Positions 5,624 to 64,000 of a DNA stretch of 64,000 nucleotides are shown piece by piece. Every line of letters starts with the position of its first letter. Positions within the stretch are counted from its first letter, which is position 1. The notes under the pieces are model-generated. The model was given only the letters and a program-made list of their open reading frames with translations. It made no database searches and had not been told where the DNA came from. Source of the DNA: Symbiotaphrina buchneri (Eukaryota; Ascomycota; Symbiotaphrinales; Symbiotaphrinaceae). The stretch covers positions 601,974 through 665,973 of the forward strand of contig BCIG01000018.1 of NCBI GenBank assembly GCA_001599915.1, in the 5' to 3' direction. The position numbers and the translations under genes are program-made.

Positions 5624-5878
5624 TCATATCCTTTGAACTGACAGATTTCTCGAGGAACAGAATACTCCCGAATACAGCTGGACGAGAGATATTCCCTCAC
5701 AAAGCACACAGGTGTCACGCAAGCTCTGAAAAGCGTTCCTTTTTTCTGCTCCATTCTTCAGATCTGGCATACTGATTGGGCGAAATACGTCACTCAGCCG
5801 ACCTGCCTTCTCTTCATAGGCGACTGTGTTTTTCAACAGTGCCTCTGTAAGCTCCTCGTCAATCGATACGAGCATCAT
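5624..5878 (-). pseudogene. Short protein-like fragment of unknown function
   Basis: An 84-residue minus-strand frame reads like a real acidic protein (IDEELTEALLKNTVAYEEKA, then LSDVFRPISMPDL). It ends without a recognisable domain and has no visible flanking exon. Probably a remnant; function unknown. Confidence 0.3.
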
Positions 5879-6169
5879 TTTGTTGATCGTTGTTCGCTTC
5901 TCGCATCCGATACAAGCTGGGTATACGCCGTTATATATGTCCCTCTCTGGACTCGTTCGTCTGCGTACTGGTACAGCCAGTCTGCAAGTACGTATGATCC
6001 AAGTCCGAACGCTTCGAGCATTTCCTGCCCCTCAGTAGTCATTGTGCTGGTTTCTGACGTCCCGACGATAGATAAAGGGTGTTCTGACGGTAGTTAAAGG
6101 GCCCTTAAAAGGCTTAGATCTTGAAACTTATATCCAGGACGTGTCAAGGCTCGAGCAGACCTTCAAGAT

Positions 6170-10262: not shown

Positions 10263-11708
10263 TCAAGTCATCTTCGGAAAGAACCCACTCTGTTGCTGTA
10301 CACCCGGCATCAAAGGTGTCGCCGGCGACCCCACAGGATGCGGCCTGATGACTCCCAACCCCGACCATGTCCCCGTCGCCGGCCCGAACTTCCACTTCCG
10401 CAACTCCTTCGCCTTCACCCTACTGATATCCTCACCCTCGAAGCCTACCCCACCGCCCTCTCGGACAGCCTGCGTCATCCAACCCACCAGATCTCCCGGT
10501 GTATGCTGCTTGACACGCTTGATATAGTCCCTGCCTCGACTATGGTGCTTCCAGAAGGTAACCCGGACGAACAGCACCAGCACCGACACGACCATGACGG
10601 CAAAGATAGCCGTGACTAGGACGAACAACACGATGATGGACATGGGAACGAGCGTCTGCTCCGTCACGCAGCCGTACGTCGTGTCGGTGCCGTCCTCGGG
10701 CGTGCTGAGGAGGTAGTTCTTCGAGCCGGCAATCATGACCATGTCGTTCAGGAGCTGCTCCAAGATAACAGCCGACATGTTCGACGCCGGCGTGTTGCTG
10801 CCGTCGTACATCAGCCCCTGCAGCGGCACGACCCATTGCTCCATCGCGATGGTGCTGTTGATCGTGGAGAGGATCCATTCTGCTTGTTGCGCTTCTAAGA
10901 TACACTCATATGTCTTCATCAGGTGTTGCTCTTGGGCTGTCGCTGCCTGATTGACCGATGCCCGGACCTTAAATGTCGTGTCCACGTCGCTGCCCACGTC
11001 GGTGTCCCACACGACGAGGTGCGCGAAACCTTCTTGGTTTCCCGTGTAGGTGTAGTACGCCTGCGCAGGGATATTGGTGGAGAAGAGTGCGCCCTCTGTC
11101 ACTTGGTTATCGATGACCTGCTTTACCTCGGAGTCAACAGTATACGTGATATCCCTGTCGATATCACTGCACAACCAGCCCCCAAGGACGTCGCTCTCCT
11201 GCGCCGTGAAATCGGGATTGTTGTTGGTCTTCCAGTAGATCCCCTGCAGTCCGCCGTTCGCGACGCTGTTTAGCTGCGCGTTTCCAGCCACGATATAAGG
11301 TGCTCCATTAACAGGTGGACCGGAAATGCCCTGGAAGGGTGTGCGGGGGATGACAAGTCCCCTTTCAAACAAGCACCGAGATGGTAGTAATTGGTTCGGG
11401 ATCAGCGCGCTGACCATCAGGTCGCTAGCAAACGACAGCGCGCCCACGAAGACCATCAAGAACCAGAGGCCGCCGCCGGGAAGGGCACGGATGGAGACGA
11501 GGGTGCTTAGGATGGGGAAGCCTTGGAGCCAGCCGGTCATGAGCGGGAGAGGAACGGCGTGGCCTTTGAGAAGGCGGCGCTTGACGGCATAGCGGCTGAT
11601 GTAGTCGCCGATGAAGGGAATGGCCAGGAAGATGGCGGTGAAGTAGAGACGGAGAGCGAGGCGGACGGCGCCGGCGTAGATGTTGATGGTGAGGTGGACG
11701 TGTGGCAT
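10263..11708 (-). CDS. Fungal multi-pass membrane protein of unknown function
   Basis: A continuous 481-codon frame with strong coding character. The N-terminal quarter has two or three hydrophobic segments (LYFTAIFLAIPFIGDY near residue 20, then GLWFLMVFVGALSFASDLMV). A long, probably extracellular middle region contains potential N-glycosylation sites (STINSTIAMEQW, NMSAV). A final strong helix, MSIIVLFVLVTAIFAVMVVS, is followed by a basic cytoplasmic tail. I chose the ATG at 11708 because the hydrophobic N-terminus starts there; the frame stays open to 12008, but that extension lies partly in tandem repeats. I do not recognise the family. It could be a sensor or cell-wall-associated membrane protein, but nothing in the sequence decides this. 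Confidence 0.8.
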   Translation of the reverse strand: MPHVHLTINIYAGAVRLALRLYFTAIFLAIPFIGDYISRYAVKRRLLKGHAVPLPLMTGWLQGFPILSTLVSIRALPGGGLWFLMVFVGALSFASDLMVSALIPNQLLPSRCLFERGLVIPRTPFQGISGPPVNGAPYIVAGNAQLNSVANGGLQGIYWKTNNNPDFTAQESDVLGGWLCSDIDRDITYTVDSEVKQVIDNQVTEGALFSTNIPAQAYYTYTGNQEGFAHLVVWDTDVGSDVDTTFKVRASVNQAATAQEQHLMKTYECILEAQQAEWILSTINSTIAMEQWVVPLQGLMYDGSNTPASNMSAVILEQLLNDMVMIAGSKNYLLSTPEDGTDTTYGCVTEQTLVPMSIIVLFVLVTAIFAVMVVSVLVLFVRVTFWKHHSRGRDYIKRVKQHTPGDLVGWMTQAVREGGGVGFEGEDISRVKAKELRKWKFGPATGTWSGLGVIRPHPVGSPATPLMPGVQQQSGFFPKMT

Positions 11709-11913
11709 CTTGTCGCTTATGTGGTCTTTGCAGTGTACAATGTCGACAAGGAAGTTTTCTGAATCTGTAACCTTTCGATCTCGTGTGGAACCCCTGTGTG
11801 CAGCACAAGGTGGGAAGGGGTTCTTTATGCAGCTTCGGCAAGGCTGTCGCCCCGTGTAGCAGCACATCAGAGCATCCTTGCAGGATGCGAACCTCCATAC
11901 ACAGACGAGCTGT

Positions 11914-12990
11914 CCCGCCCACCAGGTGGATGGGCACCCGCGGCTGAGATCGTGTCTGCCTGTCTGCCTTGTGTGGAAGGACTTCCCTGGGGTCCACACT
12001 TCGCTCACTCTCTCACAGTCCTGACTATCTAGCTTGTAGGACCCTCGGCTTCAGTCCAATCACCATGAGCCACAGCTGCAGATCAAAGCGAGTCTCGGCC
12101 TGGGGAACCTTGGAAAAAAAAGAGAAAAAAGAAAGGAAAAAAGGTTAATTCGAGAGATGGCGTGGCAGGTGTGACAGCCTTCCGGCTCAGCAGGACAGGA
12201 ACAGGAACATCCTTTGCACCGGTGGGTGGGCGGAGCTTCAGCCTGATTTGCTGGAGCGCCATATCTGTATCTGCGTGATGTAATGTGGAGCTAGCCCGCC
12301 CACCAGGAGGATGGGCACACACGGCTGAGATCGTGTCCGCCTGCCTGCCTGTGTGGATTGACTTCCCTGGCAGGCGTAGCTCACTGGCTCACTGGCTCAC
12401 AATCTAACAATCGAGACGGCCATTCACTTCAGACCAATCAGCATGAGCCTCAGCGGAAATCAGGGGACAACGAGCGAGTCTGGCCCGGAAAAACCTTGAA
12501 TGGACTCCAGAGATGGTGTGGCAGGCGTGGTAGCCTTGCAGCTCAGCTGAACAGGAACAGTTAAAGATTTCGCATCGGTGGGTGGGCAGGGGCTTCAGCC
12601 TGATTTGCTGGAGTGTCATATCTGTATCTGCATGATGTGATATGGAGCTAGCCCGTCCACCAGGTGGATGGGCGCACACGGCTGAGATCGCATCTGTCTG
12701 TCCGTCTTGCGTGCAAGGACTGCCCTGGCAGGCAAGGTCACTGGCTCAGAGTCCAGATGACGATCCACTTCAGCCCAATCACCATGAGCCTCAGCTGCAG
12801 ATGAGGGGACAAAGAGCGAGTCTCGGCCTGCGGCACCTTGAAACGGACTCGAGAAGGGCGTGGCAGGTGTGACAGCCTTGCAGCTCAGCAGGACAGGAAC
12901 AGGAACATCTTCTGCACCGGTGGGTGGGCGGCGCTTCAGTCTGATTTGCTGGAGTGCCATATCTGTATCTTGTGGAGCTGGCCCGACGGG
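11914..12990. repeat. Tandem array of three ~0.36-kb units
   Basis: The marker CCACCAGGTGGATGGGC and its variants recur at about 11914, 12295 and 12652, giving unit lengths near 381 and 357 bases. Each unit also repeats TTCCCTGGCAGG-like, CACCATGAGCC-like, CAGCTCAGCAGGACAGGAAC-like and GATTTGCTGGAG-like blocks in the same order. Unit 1 carries an extra A-rich tract at about 12113-12144. A truncated fourth start (GTGGAGCTGGCCCG) closes the array near 12990. It lies just upstream of the membrane-protein gene. Confidence 0.9.
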
Positions 12991-16379: not shown

Positions 16380-16892
16380 GGTTCAGTAGTAAAGCTAACC
16401 TCCTCCTGCTATATCCTAGTGATAGTGCGGACGTTAGCAACAATGCGTTGGCTGCGGCATAGCCTCTGGCCCGTTCGAATTCCACACGGCAAGCGGGTGT
16501 GGCAGATCTTTGTGGCCACACGCTGGCCTGGATAACCAAGAGCCCACGACGCATGTCTTCAAGAGGCTGTCTCTGGTTCTGCGTCCACCTCACGGTCTCA
16601 CGGACGAAGACACGTCTCCCGGTTGCCTCGTCCCTCTATCGAGGTTTCCGAAGACCGATGACTCCGATGATTCCGATGAACCCGCACACTCCGACAGAAT
16701 TGGAGAATCTCTGGGTGGAATTCAGCACCCACCCTGGAAGAAAATATCACTTCTGAAGCCTCCGAGAGACTCGTTTCTGCGATAGGCGATTGAGATATTT
16801 CCCTGGAAGATGAGAACTGAGATGCAGATTAGATGTCGGAATGAGAAACACTCATGAAGCGTATACAGGCAGAAAGACTGCAGGAGATGTCG

Positions 16893-17470
16893 CGTCAAGC
16901 GACCATTGCCAAGGGGCTTGGTCATCGATCTCACCGTGGGTCCGCTCCTGTCCTGGTTCAACTGGTCCGCGGGGGTTCCACCTGAGCCAGAAGGTGCTGC
17001 CACGTTCTGGTGTTGTGGTACCGGGTGTCAGGCGACGACGATCAAAGAGCTTGGTCGTCGATCTCACCCTGGTCCGGCTCCTGTCCTGTCTCGACAGGCC
17101 CAATGCAATGCAGATGCAATATCGGAATGAAAGACATACAGCTGATGCCGGTAAAAGAGAGCAGAAGTTGTCGTGTCAAGTGACCATTGCCAAGGGGCTT
17201 GGTCGTCGATCTCACCGTGGGCTCCTGTGCTGTGTCAACAGGCCGCCGGATCGGTAGCAACGCGCCGCGCAGCCGTTCGTGGTGTTTAACCATGGCGTGC
17301 CCGATTCATGGACTGGGAGAATCCGATAATGCGACCAGATTCCACCTGAGCCAGAAAGTCCTGCCGCGTCCTGGTGTTGTGGTAGCGGGTGTCAAGCGAC
17401 GATGATCAAAGAGCTTGGTCGTTGATCTCACCCTGGTTCGGCTTCTGTACTGTCTCAACAGGCCCTCCAG
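16893..17470. repeat. Nested tandem repeats
   Basis: The block CTTGGTCGTCGATCTCACC and close variants occurs four times (about 16918, 17051, 17199 and 17416). The block TTCCACCTGAGCCAGAA occurs at about 16977 and 17340. Two block types alternate, so the array is a higher-order repeat with subunits of roughly 130-220 bases. The units are diverged by point changes and small gaps. They overlap no convincing gene. Confidence 0.85.
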
Positions 17471-17499
17471 GGCTCCATCTGAGCCACAAGGCCCTTCCA

Positions 17500-18830
17500 C
17501 CAGGTGCGTGTGGTGCAAGTAAATCACAACCGGAAAAGACATAAGTGTGTCTCGGAGAGCTTTGGGGGTTCTCAAGCCTGGTTGGTTGTCGGAAGTTTTC
17601 TCAAGAATGCAACAGCCTCTCGACTCCTGTATCATTTGTCCGTGAAGTATCCGGTCAGCTGTGGAAGCCTCGCAATGTCGTCACCACACTCCTCATAAGT
17701 ACGCTTTCCAGCCTCTGCTATGATGGTTACCTGATGTACTGATTTGTTGCAGCAAGAGGCTTCGAATACCCTTCTTCACCACATTGCGCTTTGATCGGGA
17801 ACATTCCGACTGGCACCCCTGCCCATGATCAGGTCAGAAAGATTCACCCACTCGCAACACACATAACCAGGCGGATCAGCCGGTCGAAGTGTGGAAAGCG
17901 GCGTTGCACATTGTATCCAAGCGGTCTATATTGGTTTTCAACACTTGCCTGCGGTCAGGACGAAAGTAAGCTGGCCGCCGGAGCTCCATCACATTCTGTG
18001 TGTGCATTGGATTTCTTCCAGACTTGATGTCTAAGCGGATGCACTCGATCATCCCTCAAAAGTTACCGATCCTTCATCAGTTACCGAACGAGGCCCCCTT
18101 GTGCATGAAGCACCCATCTCGAAGGAGAAACGGCAAATATCCATGAAAGTGTCTCGACCACAAGGAGCACAGGCGGCCCCAGGGGAGCACCTCATGACAA
18201 CTCGTCCAATAATATCGGTCAATTTCTGTTGGAGTGGTCGCTCCCAGCCTCAAGCTCTCCAGTGTAACAAACTTTCCGACTTCGATGTTTAGGAGCATTC
18301 GGCATCTGATGACGCCCAACAAGGGTCCATCACGACTGATGTTGCGAAAATTTACAATGTTCGAGCAGAGCAGCACCAGAAAGCTGGGGAGTTGAATCTG
18401 CCGCTAAGGCAGTGCCCACATACACCCATGAGGTACTTTGATTCAGCTGCGGATCTCAGTCCTCCATGCCCGAGGCCGGGGAACAGGAAGAGGGTTCTCT
18501 CTCTAGACAAGCCTTTATGGTCGCCCTCCTTCTGCAATGCTCCCCAGTAAGCGCATTCATCCCTTTGCCTGTGGTAAAGCGACTGAGGATATTTAGGTCC
18601 AAAAGTCATGGTCCCAGTTAATACCGGGACACCGTCTGCCAGATGGCCCGCTGTTCTATGCCCTAGGAGGTGAATAGATCCCTATTCCTCTCCCTTGAAC
18701 GTCATTAATCCCTTTCAGGCATAAGCACCCTCATGGATCTCGTCAGCATAGTGCTGCCAACTCGTATTGCCCGGGGCTTCAGTATGCCGGCACGGAGAAA
18801 GATGGCAAGACTCGAACGTCAAGGAGCTCT
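17500..18830. other. No recognisable gene
   Basis: Several 60-100-codon frames exist on both strands (for example plus 17504-17698 and minus 18077-18376), but none shows a motif, a signal peptide or consistent intron sites. Probably decayed non-genic DNA. Confidence 0.35.
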
Positions 18831-20480: not shown

Positions 20481-20763
20481 ATCTGAACCAATCGCTAGAA
20501 ACTTGCATTTACTGTTCCAAGAGCGGAACAAAAGCAGTATGTTTCTTTCTGGAAGATTTTGCCGGATACAGAGGAGAGGTCTCTACTTGCCAACCTCACG
20601 CCGGAGCATCGGATGGAGAGGTTGAGGAGCAGAATGGTGGATACCGGAGGGCTTTCAAGTCATTCGCCGAGGTTGAAACATTCTCGAATATCGCGCCCGC
20701 CAGACAGTATCATGGGGTTTGAGGTGGATGACCTCGACGTCTAGGCCGATTTTGTGGCTTATG

Positions 20764-31500: not shown

Positions 31501-32620
31501 CTAGTGTAGGTCAGCCGAAAACGTTTCGATCGCGATCCGGGCCTGCAGTGGCTGATCGATGGTATGGTGGGTCGTCAGGATGTAGATCTCCTGCGGACCC
31601 TTAGACCCGAAGCGATGGATCCGCCCGACCCCTTGGACGATAATGCTGGCGGCCTCACCGCGTTCCGACATGATAGCGACGGTACAGTTCTTTTGAAGGT
31701 TCGTCGATTGCGCTCCACATGCATAGGTTGTGACAATACAAGTGCCCGTGGTGGCCGGATTATTGAACTCCTCGACAGTGTTGGAGCGCTGCAGCTTCGA
31801 GTTGGCCGCACGGATGGACAGCCCCGGGGTACCGATGGGGCCTGAGCAGGTTAGATCATTGCACCTTTGACAGTTCACTGACTCGTATACGGCGACAATG
31901 CCAAACTAAACCTTGTGGGTGATTTGCATCCGGGCAGTCTCTTGCCGGCTCGTCCGGACATCCTGCTCGTAGCGCTCCATCAGCCTGACTTGGGACAACA
32001 ACGTCTCATTTGAGCAGATCACGCTGGCTTTGCTGCGCTGTCTTTCCATGGCTCATAGAGATGGCGGATAAACCGATGCACGGGTCGCCGCTCGTGGTCA
32101 ATTTCGAACGCCATTCCGATGGGTGTATTGACGGCGTCGCACACGAGATCGGAGCCTATGCCAGATAAAACTCGCCGCGGCCAACTGACAAATCAAAACC
32201 CTCATGAAAGCCATGCAGGTCCGCCCAAGGTTGGTTTGCGGAAACACCCTCCACAGGAATTATATTTATATCCATCTCTTCAGGCCGAAATTTAGTTTGA
32301 TCGTCTTTCACTTGATGGGTATTCGGAAAAATTGAAACAGTCCATGCAGGATGACATGCGGACCTGAACATGGAGAGGCGCGTAGGGTTTTCGCATGACG
32401 AGTTCCGCTGGGTAGCATGAAGCTGGTGGACCATATTGTACTGTTGCCTGCGGACAGATATTGCTGTGGCATCAGTACCGCAGCTTTGCTGCATAACAAT
32501 GTCGGCGGAAGTTTGAGTCAATAGGCAACGTACTTCATCGCAGTGGGCATAGGGAAAGGGCACATTTTCTCGTGATCCAACTGTTGCTGTGACTCTGCCG
32601 GATAGGTATGAATCTGGCAC
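31501..32620 (-). pseudogene. SNF2-family helicase fragment, C-terminal lobe
   Basis: The clearest SNF2 relic here. Frame 31501-31878 includes NNPATTGTCIVTTYACGAQS followed by TNLQKNCTVAIM and VQGVGRIHRFGSKGPQEIYI, which fit the motif V and VI (QxxGRxxRxG) region of the C-terminal helicase lobe. Upstream on the same strand, frame 32156-32620 and an intervening piece (AFEIDHERRPVHRFIRHLYE near 32.1 kb) could be the linker between lobes. Stops and frame changes separate them. The ATPase lobe is absent, so no chromatin-remodelling or DNA-translocase activity is possible. Confidence 0.65.
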
Positions 32621-34311: not shown

Positions 34312-35430
34312 TTACTGACTCATCATTGGTATCTCTGGTCTCTCAAACAAGTTTGTAAGACGAGGCGAGGGCCTCAATGGCACAAGATTAATGGCAAAAC
34401 TCTCTGCTGACAACTTCGAGCAGATATGTCTGAAGAGGATAGGCTTCACGTAGGGAACCAGAGGCCAGTGGTGCCACCACGTCTTAGGGTTCGAGTTGGC
34501 AACCACGTATCCTTGTGCTTTACGTTGTGAGCCGATCTTCTTCGGTGAGATAGAGACATGATGATATATGTTCCATGCATTCTTTAGGTCGTTTTCTGCA
34601 ATACTGCCATAATCTAGTGTCAGGAAGACCACATTTCGGGCATTCATTGCTGGCTCAACATCGCAACATGTGAAATCGAGTTTCCGCTGATGGAGGCCTG
34701 AAGGATATGGGCAGCTTCCGCAGACTCAAGAATAGGGCGGTCCGTGCCATAAGTTGTAGGAAGCTCATTGACTGGCGAGCTCCACGAAGTACCCTCTTTG
34801 GGAATGACTGTCATATGGTCAGGTAGTATTCATCAGACAGGACCCAGATGGGGTCCAGCTCGGAGTCTTGCACCGTGTACTTCTGTATCAGGCCGATTAG
34901 TTGAGAAGAACCTGTGGGGAGGAGAAAGAGCCATACGGGCAGGAAAAGAAGTCCAACGTGTTACAAAGGATGGACATGACTGAATACGTCCAAGTTGTCG
35001 TTCTGCCAGTATAAGTCTGCGGCGTTCTCTGTTCTTGATCCATCAGTTGCCAGCCGTTGGTCAACTCCTTCTGTTCTATCCGGCCTCTTGCATGGGATTG
35101 AGTGTTTTTGGTATCTCAAACCAACCTCTTTGCCAACCCTGGTGCGCACCACATACGGACCACGAAGGTTATGATGTCCAAGCCGCTCGGCCTTGGAGGG
35201 TGTAATTGGATGATGAGCCAGCAGTGCCATTCGGCCGTAGGAGCATCGGAATCTTGAAGACCAATCCACCGGCCAGGTGTCAACATGGGATATATCTTTG
35301 AGGACGTGCCTTTGGGGTTGTATAACCACCGAGTTGCCTCATTGAAGATCGAGAGGGCTTTGTTCCCCTCGTAGTTGTTCCAGTTGGCCCGTTCCCAGCC
35401 CACGTCAAGGAGGAATGATGACCAAGTCAC
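34312..35430 (-). pseudogene. Unrecognised fragments
   Basis: Frames 35116-35430 (WERANWNNYEGNKALSIFNE), 34961-35329 and 34312-34647 (VVFLTLDYGSIAENDLKNAW) are protein-like and all on the minus strand. They may be successive exons. No motif is recognised and frame continuity is lost at two points. Confidence 0.3.
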
Positions 35431-38267: not shown

Positions 38268-38345
38268 CTAGGCATCTGGGCGTGGGGTCCCACTACCGCC
38301 GTACAACTCATACGCCTTCGAGTACGGCACCCTCACACTGTCCAG
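38268..38345 (-). pseudogene. YGGSRTP family, 3'-end fragment (copy A)
   Basis: The minus strand reads YELYGGSGTPRPDA and then stops at 38268. This is the C-terminal signature of the tandem family described at 39.4-43.8 kb, with Arg changed to Gly in the core. No upstream exons are found, so only the end of the gene survives. It marks the left edge of the array. Confidence 0.6.
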
Positions 38346-38558
38346 GAAGCCAGCATCACCACCTGTTTCTGCATTGTTGCTGACAATAATAGGCTATTCC
38401 TTTCGCGACTAGAGCAAACCATCATGCTCCTCAAATCGGTCATCGAGTATGTTGATCTGCTGCTCGTTATCGAACCCCAGCCTCCTTTTTCTTCGACTCT
38501 CTTGTTATTCCCTCCCTTTCATTCCTCCGCTCCGCTTCCCCCTTTGGCTGTCATACCT

Positions 38559-38899
38559 TTTATTGGCTCTCCGACTCCTGACGAGGAGTACGACTGCCGC
38601 CGTACAACTTATCATCCCTCGACTATAGTCCATTCTGGTCCTGCTGTTCATCCCCAGGAAGAGAGTGGAAGTCTTTCCTGTACATGCTCAGGTAGGGTTC
38701 GGTGTTGTGCAATTGGGAGGTTTCTGGGTTCCTCAACTGACCTCGTCGAAGTATGAAGATTTATAGACCCCGCCTGTGTAGTAGGAAGCCGGGACATAAG
38801 CCACCTGGTCTGAAAAGCGGTCCGAGGCAGGGTGCAGTTGTATACTGAGGCTCTTGAGCGTAGCTTAGGCTCGTCGTTGTTTTTAGTCCTGTCAGACAT
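38559..38899 (-). pseudogene. YGGSRTP family, broken copy B
   Basis: It starts with MSDRTKNNDEPKLRS like exon 1 of its siblings. After a deletion it continues with DRFSDQVAYVPASYYTGG (matching DRFPGLVNYTANSYY of copy E), LPEHVQERLPL, and finally LYGGSRTPRQES before a stop near 38559. These pieces lie in different frames and one internal stop is visible. The second exon is missing. A dead copy, but the order of blocks is preserved. Confidence 0.65.
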
Positions 38900-39402
38900 G
38901 CTTTCAGCTTAACGATGAGGGTATGTGGCAAAGATGATATGTAGTAGGCCAGTAGGACACTGCAGAATTGCCCCTTTCAACGATATGTGATATCCTTCAC
39001 CTCATTCCTCTTGGGTCAAGAATCTCAATCTTTAGGACTCTGAGCCCTATGTTAGTGGAGAAACCTTCGAGCGCCTCTTTGACGCTGTGCCATGTCGATC
39101 TGCGCTTCAAGCGGTTATAAAAGACGAAGATGGCAAAGACTTGTCGAGGCTGCCCGTTACAAATAAAGGATATATAGGAAGCTCTGAGACTTATCCGCCA
39201 TCAGACCACGATTCAACCTTCGGCAATCCTGGTTACGGCGAAAACTTACAGTCACCAAACGCATGCGCGGAAAATCGATCGGCCAAAGCCTGCACTCAAT
39301 TTGATGTTTTATGGCTTCTACCTAAGCCGTGATAGTCGTCGAGCAACAAAACAGAATCCTTTCTCCAGGCCTTACTTTTCCTGCTGCATTCTTCGGCGGT
39401 CT

Positions 39403-40270
39403 CTAGGAGCCTCGAGTAGGAGTACGGCTGCCGCCGTACCGTTCATACTCCCTCTGGTAGAGCTCCCTCAAGTCTTCCTGGTCTTCCTCAGGATGCCTTG
39501 AGATATCCTCCTCCATGTGTGGAGGTAACGTAATCCGCCGGGAACCTTCAACCTCCTGGGTTCCACCTTCTTCCTGCTGAGAGTAAGGAGAGATATATTC
39601 CCCGTTTTGAGAGGAACTGCCGAAAGCATACGAGATGTGGCCGGGAAAGCGGTTGGAGTCAAGGCTAGGCCCTGCACGGGCCATTGGTTGCTGGTTAGGG
39701 TCTTCTTACGGAGGACTGTAAAGTGTGAGTAGGGTTTCTTGGATTAGACTGGAGTGGAGAAACCTACAGAGCCTGGCTTCCAGACCGAGCATGCCCACTA
39801 TTTGGAAAAGTTGCTTGTCCGTGAAAGAAGGTCGTTTGGTGTATAGTCCCGCTTCCTTTGCAATAGTCAGTATATCAGAGTCTTGATGAGCCAGGTGCAC
39901 TTATGACGGGCAGAGGAAGCGGAGAGAGTATAGTTGGGTTTGTGTTGATGAAGGGCAGATAGGACCGGGCCATGATGACCGACCCAAGGAAATCTCCTGG
40001 ATGCTGAGAGACATCACTGAGAAAGAGTAACTAACTTGCCTTGCTGTTGAAGCTGTACTCCTGACACGCCCCCATGCTGAACAGCGCTCTGAGTCTGGCC
40101 GCGACTCTGTCCACTCCCATCCTATGTAAAGTGGTTAGCATATTACAGGCAACACCAGACACTGATGGCTTGCTCCATTGCAAGACGCAGGGACGAGAAC
40201 TTACTTGTTGTCCAGATGCCGGCTCCTTAACGCCTCCAGCCTCTTTAATGTATCCAGTCCGGTCAGACAT
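39403..40270 (-). CDS. YGGSRTP-family small protein, copy C
   Basis: Proposed exons are 40205-40270 (22 codons, MSDRTGYIKEAGG...), 40040-40060 and 39690-39403, giving about 124 residues with all phases matching. The second intron would use a GC donor (GCAAGT), which is rare, and an alternative exon at about 39706-39900 is possible. The conserved C-terminus is complete: SPYSQQEEGG, LPPHMEEDISRHPEED, then YERYGGSRTPTRGS. The protein is hydrophilic and acidic, with no signal peptide or membrane helix, so it is probably intracellular. It follows a conserved TATA block at 40405-40500. The family is not recognised. Confidence 0.6.
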
Positions 40271-40404
40271 AGTTTTAGAGAATGAAAGACGCGGTTATGT
40301 TGAGAAGATGATGATGAGTAGTGCGTGTTTGACTCGCAGATACGTAAAGAAGATAAAGGAAAATCGCCTGAACTGGATGGGAAGAGAAAGATTGCGAAGG
40401 AACT

Positions 40405-40500
40405 GCTTTTATATAGGCCCTGCTGGGTATAGAACGATAACTCCCCAGCAAACGAGCGAAGAAGCGAATGCTGAGGAGGGGCAGAAACGGTGAAATACGC
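40405..40500 (-). promoter_or_regulatory. Conserved TATA block upstream of copy C
   Basis: On the minus strand TATATAAAAG lies about 135 bases upstream of the copy C start codon. The sequence beyond it (read on the plus strand: TATAGGCCCTGCTGGGTATA, then CGATAACTC, then GAAGCGAATGCTGAGGAGGG) is shared with copies D and E. Confidence 0.6.
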
Positions 40501-40929
40501 AGATATAATACGCCGCTGCAACGGCTGCCATGCAGTGAGGCTCGTCACACCTCTAAGGAAGCTCGCCATCCAGTTGCAATCTGATATTTCGTCTTTATCA
40601 TATAGAGACCTCTCATATGTCTGTCTTGGGTATGCTGGTCTCCCGTATCACTGAACAACTTTATATAACCTTCCGGCCCTTGTGTTTTATAGTAATCCTT
40701 CCCAAAATGCTTGTCCGATATATAGAAGCGCCCAATTCCAGAGACTCAAGACTAGCGAAGGCTGCCCATTATATAAGATATAGGATATATGACTACCTTT
40801 GAGACTTCTGTGCCATCGAACTAGATCCAGTTATCGAGGACTAGTGCAAACACTTACAAGCATTAAACGCATGCTGGGATTTGTTTCGGCTGAATCCTTT
40901 ATTGAAAATCAAGTGCGCTTATTTACCGT
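40501..40929. other. Spacer in the array, no gene
   Basis: The AT-rich stretch between copy C's promoter block and the SNF2 fragment has only short frames and no motif. Confidence 0.4.
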
Positions 40930-41220
40930 TCAATCTTCGTTTATCCAGTATCTGACTGTAAACACCGGGAATAATGTTCTATCATCCTTCCAAACGAGCG
41001 ATCCGCTTGAAGGGGCAAGCACAAGGGTTGGCTTATACGGACCGGTCATAGGCTCTACCTGCTGATTGCTGTCCAAGTTGTCTGCAGACAACCTGGGCTC
41101 GGTAAGGGCCATGACTGTGCCATATGCGGTGATTGTCTTACCGAGTCCCACGTCGTCTGATATAAGGCATGAGCGCATTGGGCCTATTAGACGGCGCCTT
41201 GCCCAATCAATCCCGGTCAC
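40930..41220 (-). pseudogene. SNF2-family helicase fragment, ATPase lobe start
   Basis: The minus-strand frame carries the Walker A region SDDVGLGKTITAYGTVMALT and then PTLVLAPSSGSLVWKDD, the motif I and Ia blocks of SNF2 ATPases. The frame opens without an ATG; codons upstream (GGFFVSHQVTGIDW) continue the SNF2 signature into the 3' end of gene copy D in a different frame. It ends at a stop after motif Ia, so DEAH and everything downstream are gone. Confidence 0.75.
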
Positions 41221-42114
41221 TTGATGTGAGACGAAGAATCCACCGTGGTCGACCCGTCGACTTTGTGCCCCATCCTCTTTGGCTTACGAGTCCCCCTCGG
41301 TGTACGGCTGCCGCCGTATAGTTCATACAACCTCCAATAATGCTCCCTCAAGTCTTCCTTCTCGTCCTCTCGAATATGGGCCGGAGGCATCTCCACACCG
41401 GGGGGTAAGGTGGATCTCCGCAGACCCGAGGGATTCGGTGTTTCTCTCTGAACTTGTTCCGAGTATGGTGAGCTATACCCACCTCCTCCATAGGAGCTGC
41501 CAGGTGAGTAGGAGACAAGACCTGGAAAGCAGTCTAGGAAAGCCTGCGCCGTTGTAGAACCCGTCTGGCTCTGGATGTCATCGCGCTGGTGTCCTCCATG
41601 CTGCTGGGCAACTCCGCGTGGAGAGCCATAGATGTCAGGAAGGTTTGTCGGTTGAGGGCTGGTAGTCGTTTGAGCTACGGCCCGGAACGTTGATTGCACT
41701 GTCTGTTGGGCTTCACCCCATCATGCAATAGTTAGTACATTTTTGGGGAACCATGTATGAGTTTGATAACACAAAAGAGCTGACAGTTGTACAGGTGGAC
41801 GTAATTCATAAAAGAGGAGGCAGGGTCGAATAAAAAGCCCTGTGGTTCGAGGACAAGTGCTTTCGAGGATGAAAGAGGTAGTGAGAAAGGATGACATACC
41901 TTGCTGTTTCAGGTATTCAGATGATAGCTCTCCATCGTTAGGGATGCTCTCATCTTGGTTATGACTCTCTGGAAGAGACTCCTAGGCAAATGTGGTCAGC
42001 ATATCAGGCTCAACATTAGATGCTGGTCGTACGAGTAGCTTGCAAACCACGGATAGCAGGACTTACTCCTAGTCCAGTTGTCTTCTTCTCGCGGATTTGA
42101 GCCTTGTCAGACAT
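41217..42114 (-). CDS. YGGSRTP-family small protein, copy D
   Basis: Three exons: 42067-42114 (48 nt), 41900-41981 (82 nt) and 41217-41698 (482 nt), with GTAAGT and GTATGT donors. They total 203 codons plus stop. Exon lengths 1 and 2 and both intron phases equal those of copy E, which strongly supports the model. Blocks in order: MSDKAQIREKK, an acidic second exon ending LKQQ, a Gln/Ser-rich middle, CFPGLVSYSPGSSY, SPYSEQ, REDEKEDLREHYWRL, then YELYGGSRTPRG. Unlike its siblings it has a 23-residue extension after YGGSRTP that reads into the SNF2 relic out of frame. Function unknown; probably soluble and partly disordered. Confidence 0.75.
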
Positions 42115-42204
42115 GCTTCGAGATTCTAACACTGCGAACAGGCTGGACAGAACCTGTCGAAATCAGATCTGAAGGTGCTTGAAAAGAGAACAATGGTGGC
42201 CGAA

Positions 42205-42315
42205 CTGCTTTCATATAGGCCCCGCCGGGCATCAGACAATAACTCACCAACGAACGAGCGAGGAGGTGAATGTTGAGGAAAGGCAGAGATAACTAGAACG
42301 ATGTTACAAGAGCCA
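42205..42315 (-). promoter_or_regulatory. Conserved TATA block upstream of copy D
   Basis: CTATATGAAAG on the minus strand lies about 95 bases before the copy D ATG. Beyond it, the plus-strand text CATATAGGCCCCGCCGGGCA, CAATAACTC, GTGAATGTTGAGGAAAGG and ATGTTACAAGAGC matches the blocks of copies C and E. Confidence 0.6.
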
Positions 42316-42962
42316 GACGTATAGGCGGACATAAATACACAGAGGATACAAGGCTAATAGCTGTGCGCCTCCTGTGCCCATGCTCGAAAACTAGCCAGAC
42401 CGTTGACTCTTTCTTCGGATCGGTGGCCTTCAGCAGCTGCCGGGTGGCTGAGTATTCCTTGAAGAGCACTCGGAGCACATGGCAGACGCGTTTGTAGTCC
42501 TTCAAGTGCCGGCCTTAGAAGGCGTCGATCAAATCGGCCTCATTCATGTCCCGAAAGGATCGTTAGTTGCCAGGGCTGTTATCGATCGTCTCTGCCATGG
42601 TCAGCACCTTACTAGCATAAGCCCCCTGTGCGTCCCCTGGCGTGGAATTGGGCGTCTGGTAATAATATCCCAAGTTCCGTGCGCGAGAGATCGGTAAGAA
42701 GGCCATTTCGATCGTCCATGGCATACAGATAAGATATAAGACCCTCTGAGACATTTCCCCAGCAAGCCGCTATCCAATCATTGGCAACCCGGTTATGGTA
42801 AAACGTTACAGTCACTAAATGCATGCACAAATATCGATTGGCTAAAGCCCCAGTTCAACGGTTCTATTCTAGCTACCCAAAGTTTGAGTGGCGTCCAGTA
42901 ACAGAGTGAAAACCTGCCCACGGTCGATAACTTATGTTTACCTCCCATTCTATTGATCGTCT
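42316..42962. other. Spacer in the array, no gene
   Basis: Short frames on the minus strand (42293-42505, 42563-42754) resemble weak protein text, but nothing is recognisable. Probably decayed DNA between array members. Confidence 0.35.
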
Positions 42963-43849
42963 CTAAGAATCCTGACGGGGAGTACGGCTCCCGCCGTAAA
43001 ACTGGTATTCCCTCAAATATAACTCCCTCAACTCGTTCTGCTCTTCCTGAGGATGGCGTAGAATATCCTCTTCAACGTGTTCGGGTAAGGTACCGTACAC
43101 CGAATCTGCACCATCTTGCTCTCCTCCTTGTTCTTCCTGTGAATATGGTGAATGATATTCCCCCTTCTGATAATAGCTATTGGCGGTGTAGTTCACTAGG
43201 CCTGGGAAACGGTCAAAGCAGGGGCCGGGGCCTGCAGAGTCCTGTCGTTGTTGGATTATCGCGCCATCGTTGCGTACATGATGGGAAGGACCTCCGTAGG
43301 AAGCCCTGGAATTATGAGCAGAATTTTCTTGATTTAGGGGAATGTTGAGAGACGAACGACTCATTCCGGGCCTCATACTCTCCCAGGTATGAATATCCTG
43401 ATCGGTGGTCGGAAGCTTGGTGGGCTTCAGCGTTGCGCGGTGACGGCGCACTGGCTCCTTTGTAGCAGTTAGTCTATAGAGTTTGAGGAGCCATGCACAG
43501 CGATGATAGGAAGAGAAAGCTGAAGGATACATAGACATGCGTATCCCAGGAAAGGGAGGCAAGTCTGGACCGCAGGGCTGATGCTTCAAGACAGATGCTT
43601 AAAAAAGCGTTACTGAGAAAGTACATTCGACATACCTTGCTCTTGCTCCCGCACAGACGATGCACCATCATGCTGAAGACCACTGTCCTCTTGAATGTGA
43701 GACTTATGAAGCAAGTCCTGAGTAGGACGGTTAGCATAACAGCCTTAACGCCTGACGGTGCTGGTTCGGCCTCGGCGCCGAACATGGAGACCAAGGCCTA
43801 CCTCTCGTCCGTACTCCGGTCCACCGACGTTTCCAGCCATGCCAGACAT
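42963..43849 (-). CDS. YGGSRTP-family small protein, copy E
   Basis: Exons are 43802-43849 (48 nt), 43636-43717 (82 nt) and 42963-43450 (488 nt). They total 618 nt, or 205 residues plus stop. Exon 3 starts at an acceptor ending CCAG with a split GTG codon, exactly as in copy D. Blocks: MSGMAGNVGG, an acidic second exon, a basic stretch (RRHRATLKPTKLP), CFDRFPGLVNYTANSYY, YHSPYSQEEQ, LPEHVEEDILRHPQEEQ, then YQFYGGSRTPRQDS. The acidic helix before YGGSRTP is the best conserved part of the family. No signal peptide, membrane helix or known domain. The promoter block at 43970-44080 lies upstream. Confidence 0.75.
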
Positions 43850-43969
43850 GGTTTTAGTTCGGGTGATGTTGATCAGTAGGTAGGATGGTGTTCAATTTGT
43901 GTCTGAAGCGGTCACGCAAGAGACAGCTTGCGGTGAGTATGCTTGTATAGAGAAGTAGAGAGAAGCGCT

Positions 43970-44080
43970 TTCATATAGGTCCTGCTGGATTTCAAACGAT
44001 AATTCTACAGTGAACGAGATCAGAAGTGAATGTTAAGGAGGGGCGGAACCAAGTAGAATAATGTTACAAGAGCTTAGAGC
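43970..44080 (-). promoter_or_regulatory. Conserved TATA block upstream of copy E
   Basis: CTATATGAAAG on the minus strand lies about 125 bases before the copy E start codon. The adjacent sequence (plus strand: CATATAGGTCCTGCTGGATT, CGATAATTC, GTGAATGTTAAGGAGGGGCG, ATGTTACAAGAGC) matches copies C and D. Confidence 0.6.
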
Positions 44081-44111
44081 CGTCTGAACTCATCTACAAG
44101 CACGAAAACAT

Positions 44112-45064
44112 TTAATGAACTGATCTAAGCAGACAGCGTGACGAGGGAGGCTTCGAAGCAATGTCCTGTCCGCTGAGGCGTGAGCGTATCCAGGGCTCGC
44201 CAGGAAGTGCATATGCCGCTGTATCAGAGACGAGCTGTTTCACAAAATTATGTACTGGTTCAACGACGACCTTCATCATGTCACGCGCCCGTTTGAACGC
44301 AACACATATGTCCATCAAGTTTTCGTCTGAGTTGGACGTTCTGTGCTCCGTGCTGAGGGCGGTCCAGGCTGTCTTCTGATTCTTGGCGGTTGTGGACCCG
44401 TCTCTGAATTCTGAAAAATAGAAAACTTCCATCTGTTTGACATTGTACAGGTGATGAAGACCGTTTTTCTCGTCAATTAAGACGTAGAGCTTTTTTTGCT
44501 CTAGCATACCGGTTTCGGCGACGGCCCTCAACGGGTTGAAACTGTCCGTCGCTACGATATAGGACGGCGCCTGAAGGCCTGCCGTGCTCTTTCGTTTGAT
44601 AGTTGTAGCCTTGTCCAGTTCTTTGAAATCAACACCTGAAAGCACGATTCCGACCCTTACTCGAAGCTCGTTACCAACCCTAATAGCTTCTATCAGATAT
44701 CGGTGTTGTTGCCAAGTATAATTCCAGGCAACGCTAATATCATCAAATCAACCCTAGCATCCACATTTCCACGTTATTCGCCGCCCAGGTGTTATAAGTG
44801 TTTAAATCGTCCTCGCACAAGAAGTACTTTCTCGCCTTCTGGTCTCTGGTAGTAACTGAATCTTTATACGGTCCATCCATTCGTTGCATTCTGCATCACC
44901 AGTAATTGCGTTGCCGACTTCTGCTTCTGCCATAATACGCAAATTCTGGTCTCGTCATTGAGACGGCAGGTCCTCAGTCCCCATGCTCCCTCTTCGATAT
45001 CACCTAGCAATATGAGAATATGATGCCCAGATCCAGTAGAGTCCAAGACAGGAGGCCAAGCCAA
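44112..45064 (-). pseudogene. Unrecognised gene, probably broken
   Basis: The best part is a 177-codon minus frame (44112-44645) that stays open upstream to about 44745 (WNYTWQQHRYLIEAIRVGNE). Before it, text continues in other frames: KARKYFLCEDDLNTYNTWAA, then NVEMWML, and further up AITGDAECNEWMDRIKIQ. Joined, this would be a protein of 250 or more residues, but at least one frameshift is needed near 44.87 kb. It sits inside the YGGSRTP array, on the same strand, upstream of copy E's promoter. No domain recognised. Confidence 0.45.
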
Positions 45065-45495
45065 ACATCATCGATATTAAGCACCGTCCTTCCATGATGT
45101 TTCAGGATCTTTGCTGCGGAAAGACATTCAGCGGATTTATATCCTGTATTTCTCCGAAACAGATCTTCTCAAGCGGGATTCCTACCGCCCTCCTCCCCAG
45201 GAAACGCGTGGTCACCCTAATCAAATGTATCACAAAGGCATGCGCCAGCCCACAATCATTTGGTCGCAGCCTTTTGTTTTCGACATGCCTTGTTTCTGCA
45301 CGTATCCAGATGGCCGAGCATCATGTTTAGGAATGCTCTGATTCTGATCGTGACTCAGTTTCCGTGGCCCCAGAGCAAGGCCGATACCATATCGGGCCTA
45401 CTATCAGACGCTGATCTTCTAGGCAATCCTTGCCGACGCATAGCGGCCGAGGATTCAATTGAAGCAGCCAGCTTCCAAATTTGACAAGGTACCTC
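45065..45495. other. No gene seen
   Basis: Plus frames at 45094-45484 overlap in different registers and look random. No motif. Confidence 0.35.
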
Positions 45496-45700
45496 CTAAT
45501 CGCAGATTGGAGGAGAGGTATCAGGGAGTATGTGTTCGTTATCGTCACTGGGCTCCTCCGCAGGGTGACGCGAGATATATTCCTGCACCGTGTGGAGGTA
45601 AGGTGGTGCGCGCTGAACTTGAAGAATTTGGGAGACGTTGACCGGAGACCTATGAGCGTAAGTAATGTGGCTTAGTCTGAAGGAGGGCGCGGAGTGGAAT
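45496..45700 (-). pseudogene. YGGSRTP family, diverged copy F
   Basis: The minus frame reads SFRLSHITYAHRSP (compare GHISYAFGSSS in copy C), then APPYLHTVQEYISRHPAEEP (compare LPPHMEEDISRHPEED). It ends with ILPDTSPPICD, where YGGSRTP would be expected. The start and first two exons are missing and the upstream sequence is the tail of another gene. A right-hand, degenerate array member. Confidence 0.5.
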
Positions 45701-63497: not shown

Positions 63498-64000
63498 TCA
63501 AACAACAGGAGCGCGGCGCTCAATCTTCATCCAGACATCCGACCAGAACCCGACTCCTCCCTTGACATGGAACACTCCGGGCCTCGACTCATCGACCAAC
63601 GTCGGTTTGAACGTGCGGAAGAACTATCACAAACGCAATCAGCAACCCCTCTCCCACTCCCGAATCTACAAACGCGACTCACCTGCAATGGTCCCTTGTA
63701 CAACTCCATCAACGCAATATCTCTGCCAAGGCAGACCCGCGCGCCATACCCAAACGCCATATTATACTTGGTGAACTCCTTGGCCTTGTCCTCGTCCAGC
63801 CAGCGCTCGGGGCGGAACTCGCACGCGTCCGGGCCGTATAACTTCTCGTCGCGGTGGACCAGCCACGGGTTACACGTCACCTCGGCGCCCTCGGGCACGA
63901 ANTTGCCCTCCAGCTCCATGCCGCCCTTGCTGACGAGCCGTGGGAAGATGTTGGGCGCGCTCGGGCATAGCCGCATGGTTTCTTTCACGCAGGCGACGTA
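63498..64000 (-). CDS. Cytochrome P450, C-terminal part (continues beyond window)
   Basis: Two exons: 63683 to the window edge, and 63498-63623. They are separated by a 59-base intron with GTGAGT and an acceptor ending GATAG. The visible 147 residues include the K-helix ExxR ([12 protein letters not shown]), the PERW meander motif ([12 protein letters not shown]) and the haem-binding loop [20 protein letters not shown], whose Cys is the haem ligand. The second exon ends [16 protein letters not shown]. The N-terminal membrane anchor and I-helix lie outside the window. The enzyme would be an ER-bound monooxygenase; its substrate cannot be told from this part. One N (63902) lies in exon 1. Confidence 0.93.

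Follow-up and report, generated by a model that had tools for sequence, protein, structure and literature searches.

In a 64,000-nucleotide (nt) stretch of the Symbiotaphrina buchneri genome, hereafter the window, we identified a tandem array of small genes whose products end in the motif YGGSRTP. The window covers C18:601974-665973 in a 23.38-Mb assembly of 82 contigs and forms the end of contig C18 (665973 nt). The array comprises three well-formed copies on the minus strand, designated E, D and C, together with three or four remnants, and all detected copies and remnants fit within 7.4 kb. In the well-formed copies the final 79 codons change in the manner of protein-coding sequence and the first half is nearly free. 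With moderate confidence, we interpret the array as a lineage-restricted fungal tandem family kept by birth-and-death; three of its members probably work and would act through their constant C-terminus. That E, D and C are real genes is very probable.

Gene structure of the three well-formed copies

Copy names follow the preliminary description of this DNA (A-F), with E, D and C assigned by an inferred mapping through exon lengths. Copy E (42963..43849, minus strand) is composed of exons 43849-43802, 43717-43636 and 43450-42963, with lengths of 48, 82 and 488 nt, and encodes 205 amino acids ending in YGGSRTPRQDS. Similarly, copy D (41217..42114, minus strand) has exons 42114-42067, 41981-41900 and 41698-41217 (48, 82 and 482 nt) and encodes 203 amino acids, its reading frame continuing beyond YGGSRTP. 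In both, the reading frame is fully open across the three exons, the splice sites are usable and a GTG codon is split at exon 3. These gene models agree with the preliminary description, which had reported identical lengths for the first two exons of D and E, the same phases and the split GTG codon.

Copy C (39403..40270, minus strand) is described by a tentative four-exon model with exons 40270-40205, 40121-40040, 39851-39768 and 39671-39403. Its 166-residue product is consistent with the earlier remark that this copy is shorter. Exon 1 measures 66 nt, exon 2 measures 82 nt and has a GC donor, the phases are those of E and D, and the last part is open up to a stop after YGGSRTPTRGS. A 96-nt GTAGGT...CTAAC...GCAG stretch that holds a stop codon must be an intron for the frame to reach its own stop.

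Exon 2 is therefore 82 nt long in all three copies, with conserved intron phases. Intron 1 is likewise of similar size (84, 85 and 83 nt in E, D and C), carries TATGCTAACC, TATGCTGACC and TATGCTAACC, respectively, ahead of its acceptor, and includes the branch-point-like sequence TATGCTRACC in each copy.

Selection on the C-terminal block and age of the array

The C-terminal block consists of 79 codons (DRFPG..RTP) that align without gaps. Between copies it differs at 106, 83 and 93 nucleotides and at 44, 31 and 38 residues for the pairs ED, EC and DC, which share sequences and are not independent. When the same changes were placed at random, the mean residue differences rose to 57.5, 48.6 and 52.0. 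For each of the three pairs, the observed value was reached in 0 of 5000 such neutral simulations. The preliminary description had proposed following the ratio of nonsynonymous to synonymous substitution rates (dN/dS) along the alignment. By the Nei-Gojobori method this ratio is low in the C-terminal block (0.15, 0.14 and 0.22 for ED, EC and DC) and reaches 0.56 in the part before it, a value available for ED only, over 95 aligned codons with gaps. Identity between E and D follows the same pattern, with 35 of 79 residues shared in the block versus 28 of 95 aligned residues, with large gaps, before it. The earlier picture of a fast-diverging family with a conserved end and a nearly unrecognizable N-terminal half is thus borne out.

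These results indicate that the end of the protein remained under selection long after duplication, that the start hardly did, and that the array is old. The proportion of synonymous differences (pS) in the block is 0.74, 0.71 and 0.68 for ED, EC and DC, which amounts to saturation. Together with the decayed copies, saturated synonymous sites point to an old birth-and-death array and not to a recent expansion. The array had been called locally expanding; with pS at 0.68-0.74 and three or four other copies decayed, this label is not supported.

Shared promoter and 3' element

A 112-nt TATA promoter block with CCTATATRAAAGC precedes each well-formed copy on the minus strand, at 43962..44073 for E (with CCTATATGAAAGC), 42202..42313 for D and 40400..40511 for C. 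Between copies the promoter is 69-73% identical, versus 43-50% for the 5' untranslated region. The pattern of its 21-base core has exactly three exact sites in the genome, all of them in the array; when up to three mismatches were allowed, four further sites appeared elsewhere, each with three mismatches, and the backward control gave 4+4. A 131-base promoter query matched only itself and missed the sibling promoters, and is therefore uninformative on promoter relatives.

A second conserved element lies downstream, also on the minus strand. It is found at 42720..42834 after copy E (71% identical to the copy C element over 115 nt) and at 39160..39270 after copy C, where it was delineated from the repeat families of the window and from comparison of the copies. 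In E and C, 153 nt separate this element from the repeat block at RTP; in D, where the element occupies 40748..40879 (66% over 139 columns), the separation is 425 nt. The gap between D and this element holds a fragment resembling an SNF2 helicase (40933..41196, minus strand), which is 57% identical to a place on contig C31 (expect value 3.5e-23) and was named from our reading of its motifs, not from a library match. Since this 264-nt match fills the 272-nt excess in spacing, an insert appears to have displaced the 3' element of D.

Search for relatives

Searched against the whole genome, the E protein retrieved copy C (expect value 3.3e-25) and copy D (5.0e-13). With four candidates scored, it had no match beyond the array at expect values up to 10. 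Similarly, the C-terminal part of C retrieved only itself, E (3.0e-26) and D (2.4e-17). The remnants within the window were absent from the results of these protein searches, so equally decayed copies elsewhere would be missed. A 20-base degenerate pattern for YGGSRTP occurred at four places in the array and one elsewhere, against one for the control. The single outside match, on contig C29, was dismissed as chance, its frame being read by eye as an amino-acid permease.

The description of the family as having no known domain is supported by library searches with the three copies. Pfam returned a single match, taken as chance-level (MOV-10_N, expect value 0.13, one of three members), and NCBIfam none up to an expect value of 1. 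A profile search of the PDB gave one match, to heparanase (0.92), which was likewise set aside as chance. The profile-type search suggested in the preliminary description also produced no known family: among 5.8 billion proteins, a collection that covers few near fungi, neither E alone (expect value up to 1) nor the alignment (up to 10) found a match. As a control, the neighboring gene at 10266-11708 yielded 11 fungal relatives, 31-40% identical, among 7994 candidates scored, the named ones being from Imshaugia and Scytalidium. The introns and gene content of the DNA likewise suggest a filamentous fungus. Because the control found only these few distant relatives, the collection is thin near the host and the absence of the family from it is weak evidence. 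Two peptide patterns searched in each of the IMG/VR and GTDB contig sets gave 139 and 34 pattern matches, respectively, none of which was confirmed as a relative, and a literature text search for the string YGGSRTP found no occurrence. Many fungal genes lack known relatives or domains, and most such genes have no assigned function.

The lack of any relative found, in a region that takes up gene fragments, would also suit derivation from a mobile element, or from foreign DNA captured as a gene, followed by local multiplication. We consider this origin very unlikely, as introns and promoter are conserved and the genome offered no second locus, with the reservation that copies as decayed as the remnants could be missed.

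Protein properties and a possible mode of action

The three proteins are strongly hydrophilic, with a grand average of hydropathy between -1.05 and -1.21. By hydropathy, none has a signal peptide (best 10-residue mean near the N-terminus, -0.40 to 0.39) or a membrane segment (best 19-residue mean, -0.03 to 0.79), and each contains at most one cysteine. A family of secreted effectors would likewise be small, fast-evolving, arranged in tandem and without known relatives; we give this explanation almost no credence, given the absence of a signal-peptide-like hydrophobic N-terminus in all three copies and the scarcity of cysteines. We infer that the products are mainly disordered, intracellular and soluble.

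AlphaFold2 was run on three-sequence alignments for exon 3 of E and for the end of C. Both models contain two C-terminal helices (residues 123-130 and 134-151 in E exon 3, and 55-62 and 66-82 in the end of C), with a predicted local distance difference test score (pLDDT) of about 75-87 in the helix blocks, and the remainder has no helix or strand. Invariant residues include FPG, SPYS, TLP, LRE and YGGSRTP.

These features suggest a possible mode of action. The three copies would be expressed together from their common TATA promoter, and the constant C-terminus, in which an aromatic stretch with SPYS and the two predicted helices precede the YGGSRTP tail, may bind a partner common to all copies. 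The N-terminal half would then serve as a spacer or carry copy-specific contacts. The two invariant S/T-P sites, in SPYS and SRTP, are candidates for proline-directed phosphorylation, which could switch partner binding. Both the docking tail and its phosphorylation are read from the invariant residues alone, and we hold the docking-tail mechanism to be doubtful. An extended version is unlikely in our judgment: an undescribed family of adaptors in which the helix and YGGSRTP tail would dock on a shared partner, perhaps under control by phosphorylation, the drifting N-terminal halves would confer copy specificity, and a private promoter would switch the copies together. Comparison of the three diverged copies within a single genome already reveals the protein segment, the splice signals and the promoter that selection has retained. 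The functional piece is thereby narrowed to about 79 residues ahead of experiment, making the family a compact test case.

Observations that weigh against functional, maintained copies

Several observations count against the interpretation of a maintained family acting through its C-terminus. At the level of the genes, GC content at third codon positions (GC3) is 0.50-0.54 in the copies versus 0.72-0.83 in three other genes of the window, which suggests weak codon bias; the usual end and 3' region are missing from copy D; and intron 3 of copy C was placed from splice-like signals alone. At the level of selection, the last 30 codons taken by themselves give dN/dS of 0.32, 0.15 and 0.51 (ED, EC and DC), so that by this measure constraint is not strongest in the tail. 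For exon 2, 1805, 30 and 731 of 5000 simulations (ED, EC and DC) were as conserved as the observed sequences or more so; this exon is thus little constrained, and the N-terminal part may hardly matter. At the level of the protein, overall model confidence is low (mean pLDDT 55 and 61), and the long helix shows no clear amphipathicity, its score being equaled in 1042-1768 of 5000 shuffles. The suggestion that the array is a candidate for an undescribed system is too strong, as genome searches found neither a partner gene nor a second locus for the family.

Low GC3 and the damaged 3' end of D, along with the three or four decayed copies and the gene fragments all around, are what would be expected of a dying array, in which the family was functional when its copies diverged but the region is decaying and E, D and C have since become pseudogenes, either relaxed or silent. 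However, E and D remain open over three exons with splice sites that can be used, and the promoter, in three copies, and the 3' element have been kept despite saturated synonymous sites. We therefore regard a dying array as rather unlikely and retain the reading of a birth-and-death family with probably working members.

Remnant copies

The motif [YF]GG[ST][RGKQ]TP occurs at five sites in the window, all on the minus strand, at about 43.0, 41.3, 39.4, 38.6 and 38.3 kb. Besides the well-formed copies, a decayed copy corresponding to B lies at 38563..38966 (minus strand). Identified by tblastn and relaxed blastn, it retains part of the 5' end (38966-38867) and, split over more than one frame, pieces of the C-terminus; its tblastn pieces, 38658-38572 and 38831-38724, fall within 38849-38572 (expect values down to 2e-7). 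A C-terminal remnant corresponding to A, at 38271..38342 (minus strand), carries YGGSGTP and is identified by this motif and a weak tblastn match (0.005-0.05). On the other side of the array, relaxed blastn alone detected two minus-strand pieces: a C-terminal-like remnant corresponding to F (45554..45618; expect value 4e-5, 72% over 65 columns), which also appears among the repeat families of the window, and an exon-2-like remnant (45282..45416; 3e-8, 63% over 136 columns). The two possibly derive from two different lost copies. The reversed window, used as a tblastn control, gave zero matches at expect values up to 0.05. Copies A, B and F had been described as broken, and their regions indeed hold only remnants; the earlier count of at least six minus-strand copies in 7.5 kb holds if the weak remnants are included.

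Surroundings of the array

Pfam comparison covered 28 of the 86 open reading frames of at least 120 amino acids in the window, plus two frames of L018, and could thus have overlooked further known domains. It revealed a Helicase_C-like fragment at 31504-31905 (minus strand), below the curated cut-off, and a DUF4470-like fragment at 34315-34725, at the cut-off score. Weak sub-threshold matches also appeared, among them a ribosomal L15e-like match and an RNase Y-like coiled coil. Repeat-induced point mutation (RIP) left no clear sign, with TpA/ApT of 0.46-0.91 and a substrate index of 1.13-1.53 in 2-kb bins; it was rejected as the cause of decay, although TpA/ApT reached 0.89-0.91 in a few bins. 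The region had been described as otherwise decayed, and this stands in part: the SNF2-like, Helicase_C-like and DUF4470-like pieces bear it out.

Just upstream of E, an open reading frame at 44115-44747 encodes 211 amino acids of no known family and has a relative with internal stops at C5:84836-85796. The same C5 neighborhood has matches to three other window stretches, 5802-5943, 18666-18756 and 20703-20740, and in it the genome search with the E protein did not find the YGGSRTP family.

About 2 kb upstream of E, the segment 45975-46446 contains six near-palindromic 14-mers close to TAGRACYAGTYCTA in 472 bases. Within the window their ten-base core occurs only there, and genome matches with at most one mismatch form no other cluster. 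The motif is not in excess (24 matches at three mismatches in the window versus 18.8 expected; 14+16 in the genome versus 64+67 in the backward control), and only its clustering is odd; the cluster could be an array of binding sites. Elsewhere in the window, self-comparison revealed diverged direct repeats at 11907-12970 (about 73-74% identical), and short diverged repeats lie at 16822-17500 (76-90% identical). A search with 5.8S rRNA gave no match, and no rRNA turned up in the opening 5 kb of five small contigs.

The array occupies a stretch some 18-26 kb away from the end of the contig. Inspected by eye, the final 4 kb contain a P450-like reading frame and no telomere repeat. The minus strand at 63700-64000, cut by the contig end, resembles by eye the end of a cytochrome P450 carrying what we take to be its heme-binding motif.

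Comparison with known systems

The wtf meiotic drivers of fission yeast are small, multi-exon, fast-evolving genes subject to birth-and-death, and in these respects they resemble the array. They are multi-pass membrane proteins; the array proteins have no membrane segment by hydropathy. Similarly, the Tpr proteins of Theileria combine a conserved C-terminus with membership in a variable multigene family (PMC10730637). The constant domain of Tpr is reported to be membrane-associated (PMC10730637), unlike the hydrophilic one of the array, and we do not claim homology.

By analogy, the clustered lineage-specific genes of Neurospora are the nearest published kind. There, NCU00529 and its homologues NCU00530 and NCU00531 form a subtelomeric cluster, and deletion of NCU00529 arrests sexual development, at the stage of protoperithecia (PMC10684091). 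The array might therefore be viewed as a lineage-specific cluster of this type, devoted to self-recognition or sexual development, whose variable half diversifies for recognition; its fast N-terminal half, its tandem paralogues and its position some 18-26 kb short of the end of the contig are in keeping with this. We nevertheless find such a role quite unlikely. The N-terminal dN/dS is 0.56 and not above 1, no telomere repeat was seen in the last 4 kb, and, unlike the Neurospora clusters, contig C18 has no HET-domain match among the matches listed, of which the genome has at least 14. In addition, most knockouts of Neurospora lineage-specific genes showed no sexual-development phenotype: among the knockouts that existed for a set of 367 genes, only three had one (PMC10684091).

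Conservation of the C-terminal block is observed in the array itself, and its likeness to the Neurospora genes is one of description, not of sequence comparison. Those clusters, like the array, have few or no known domains, often group duplicate paralogues with large non-coding spaces, and lie near chromosome ends, as the array lies near the end of its contig (PMC10684091).

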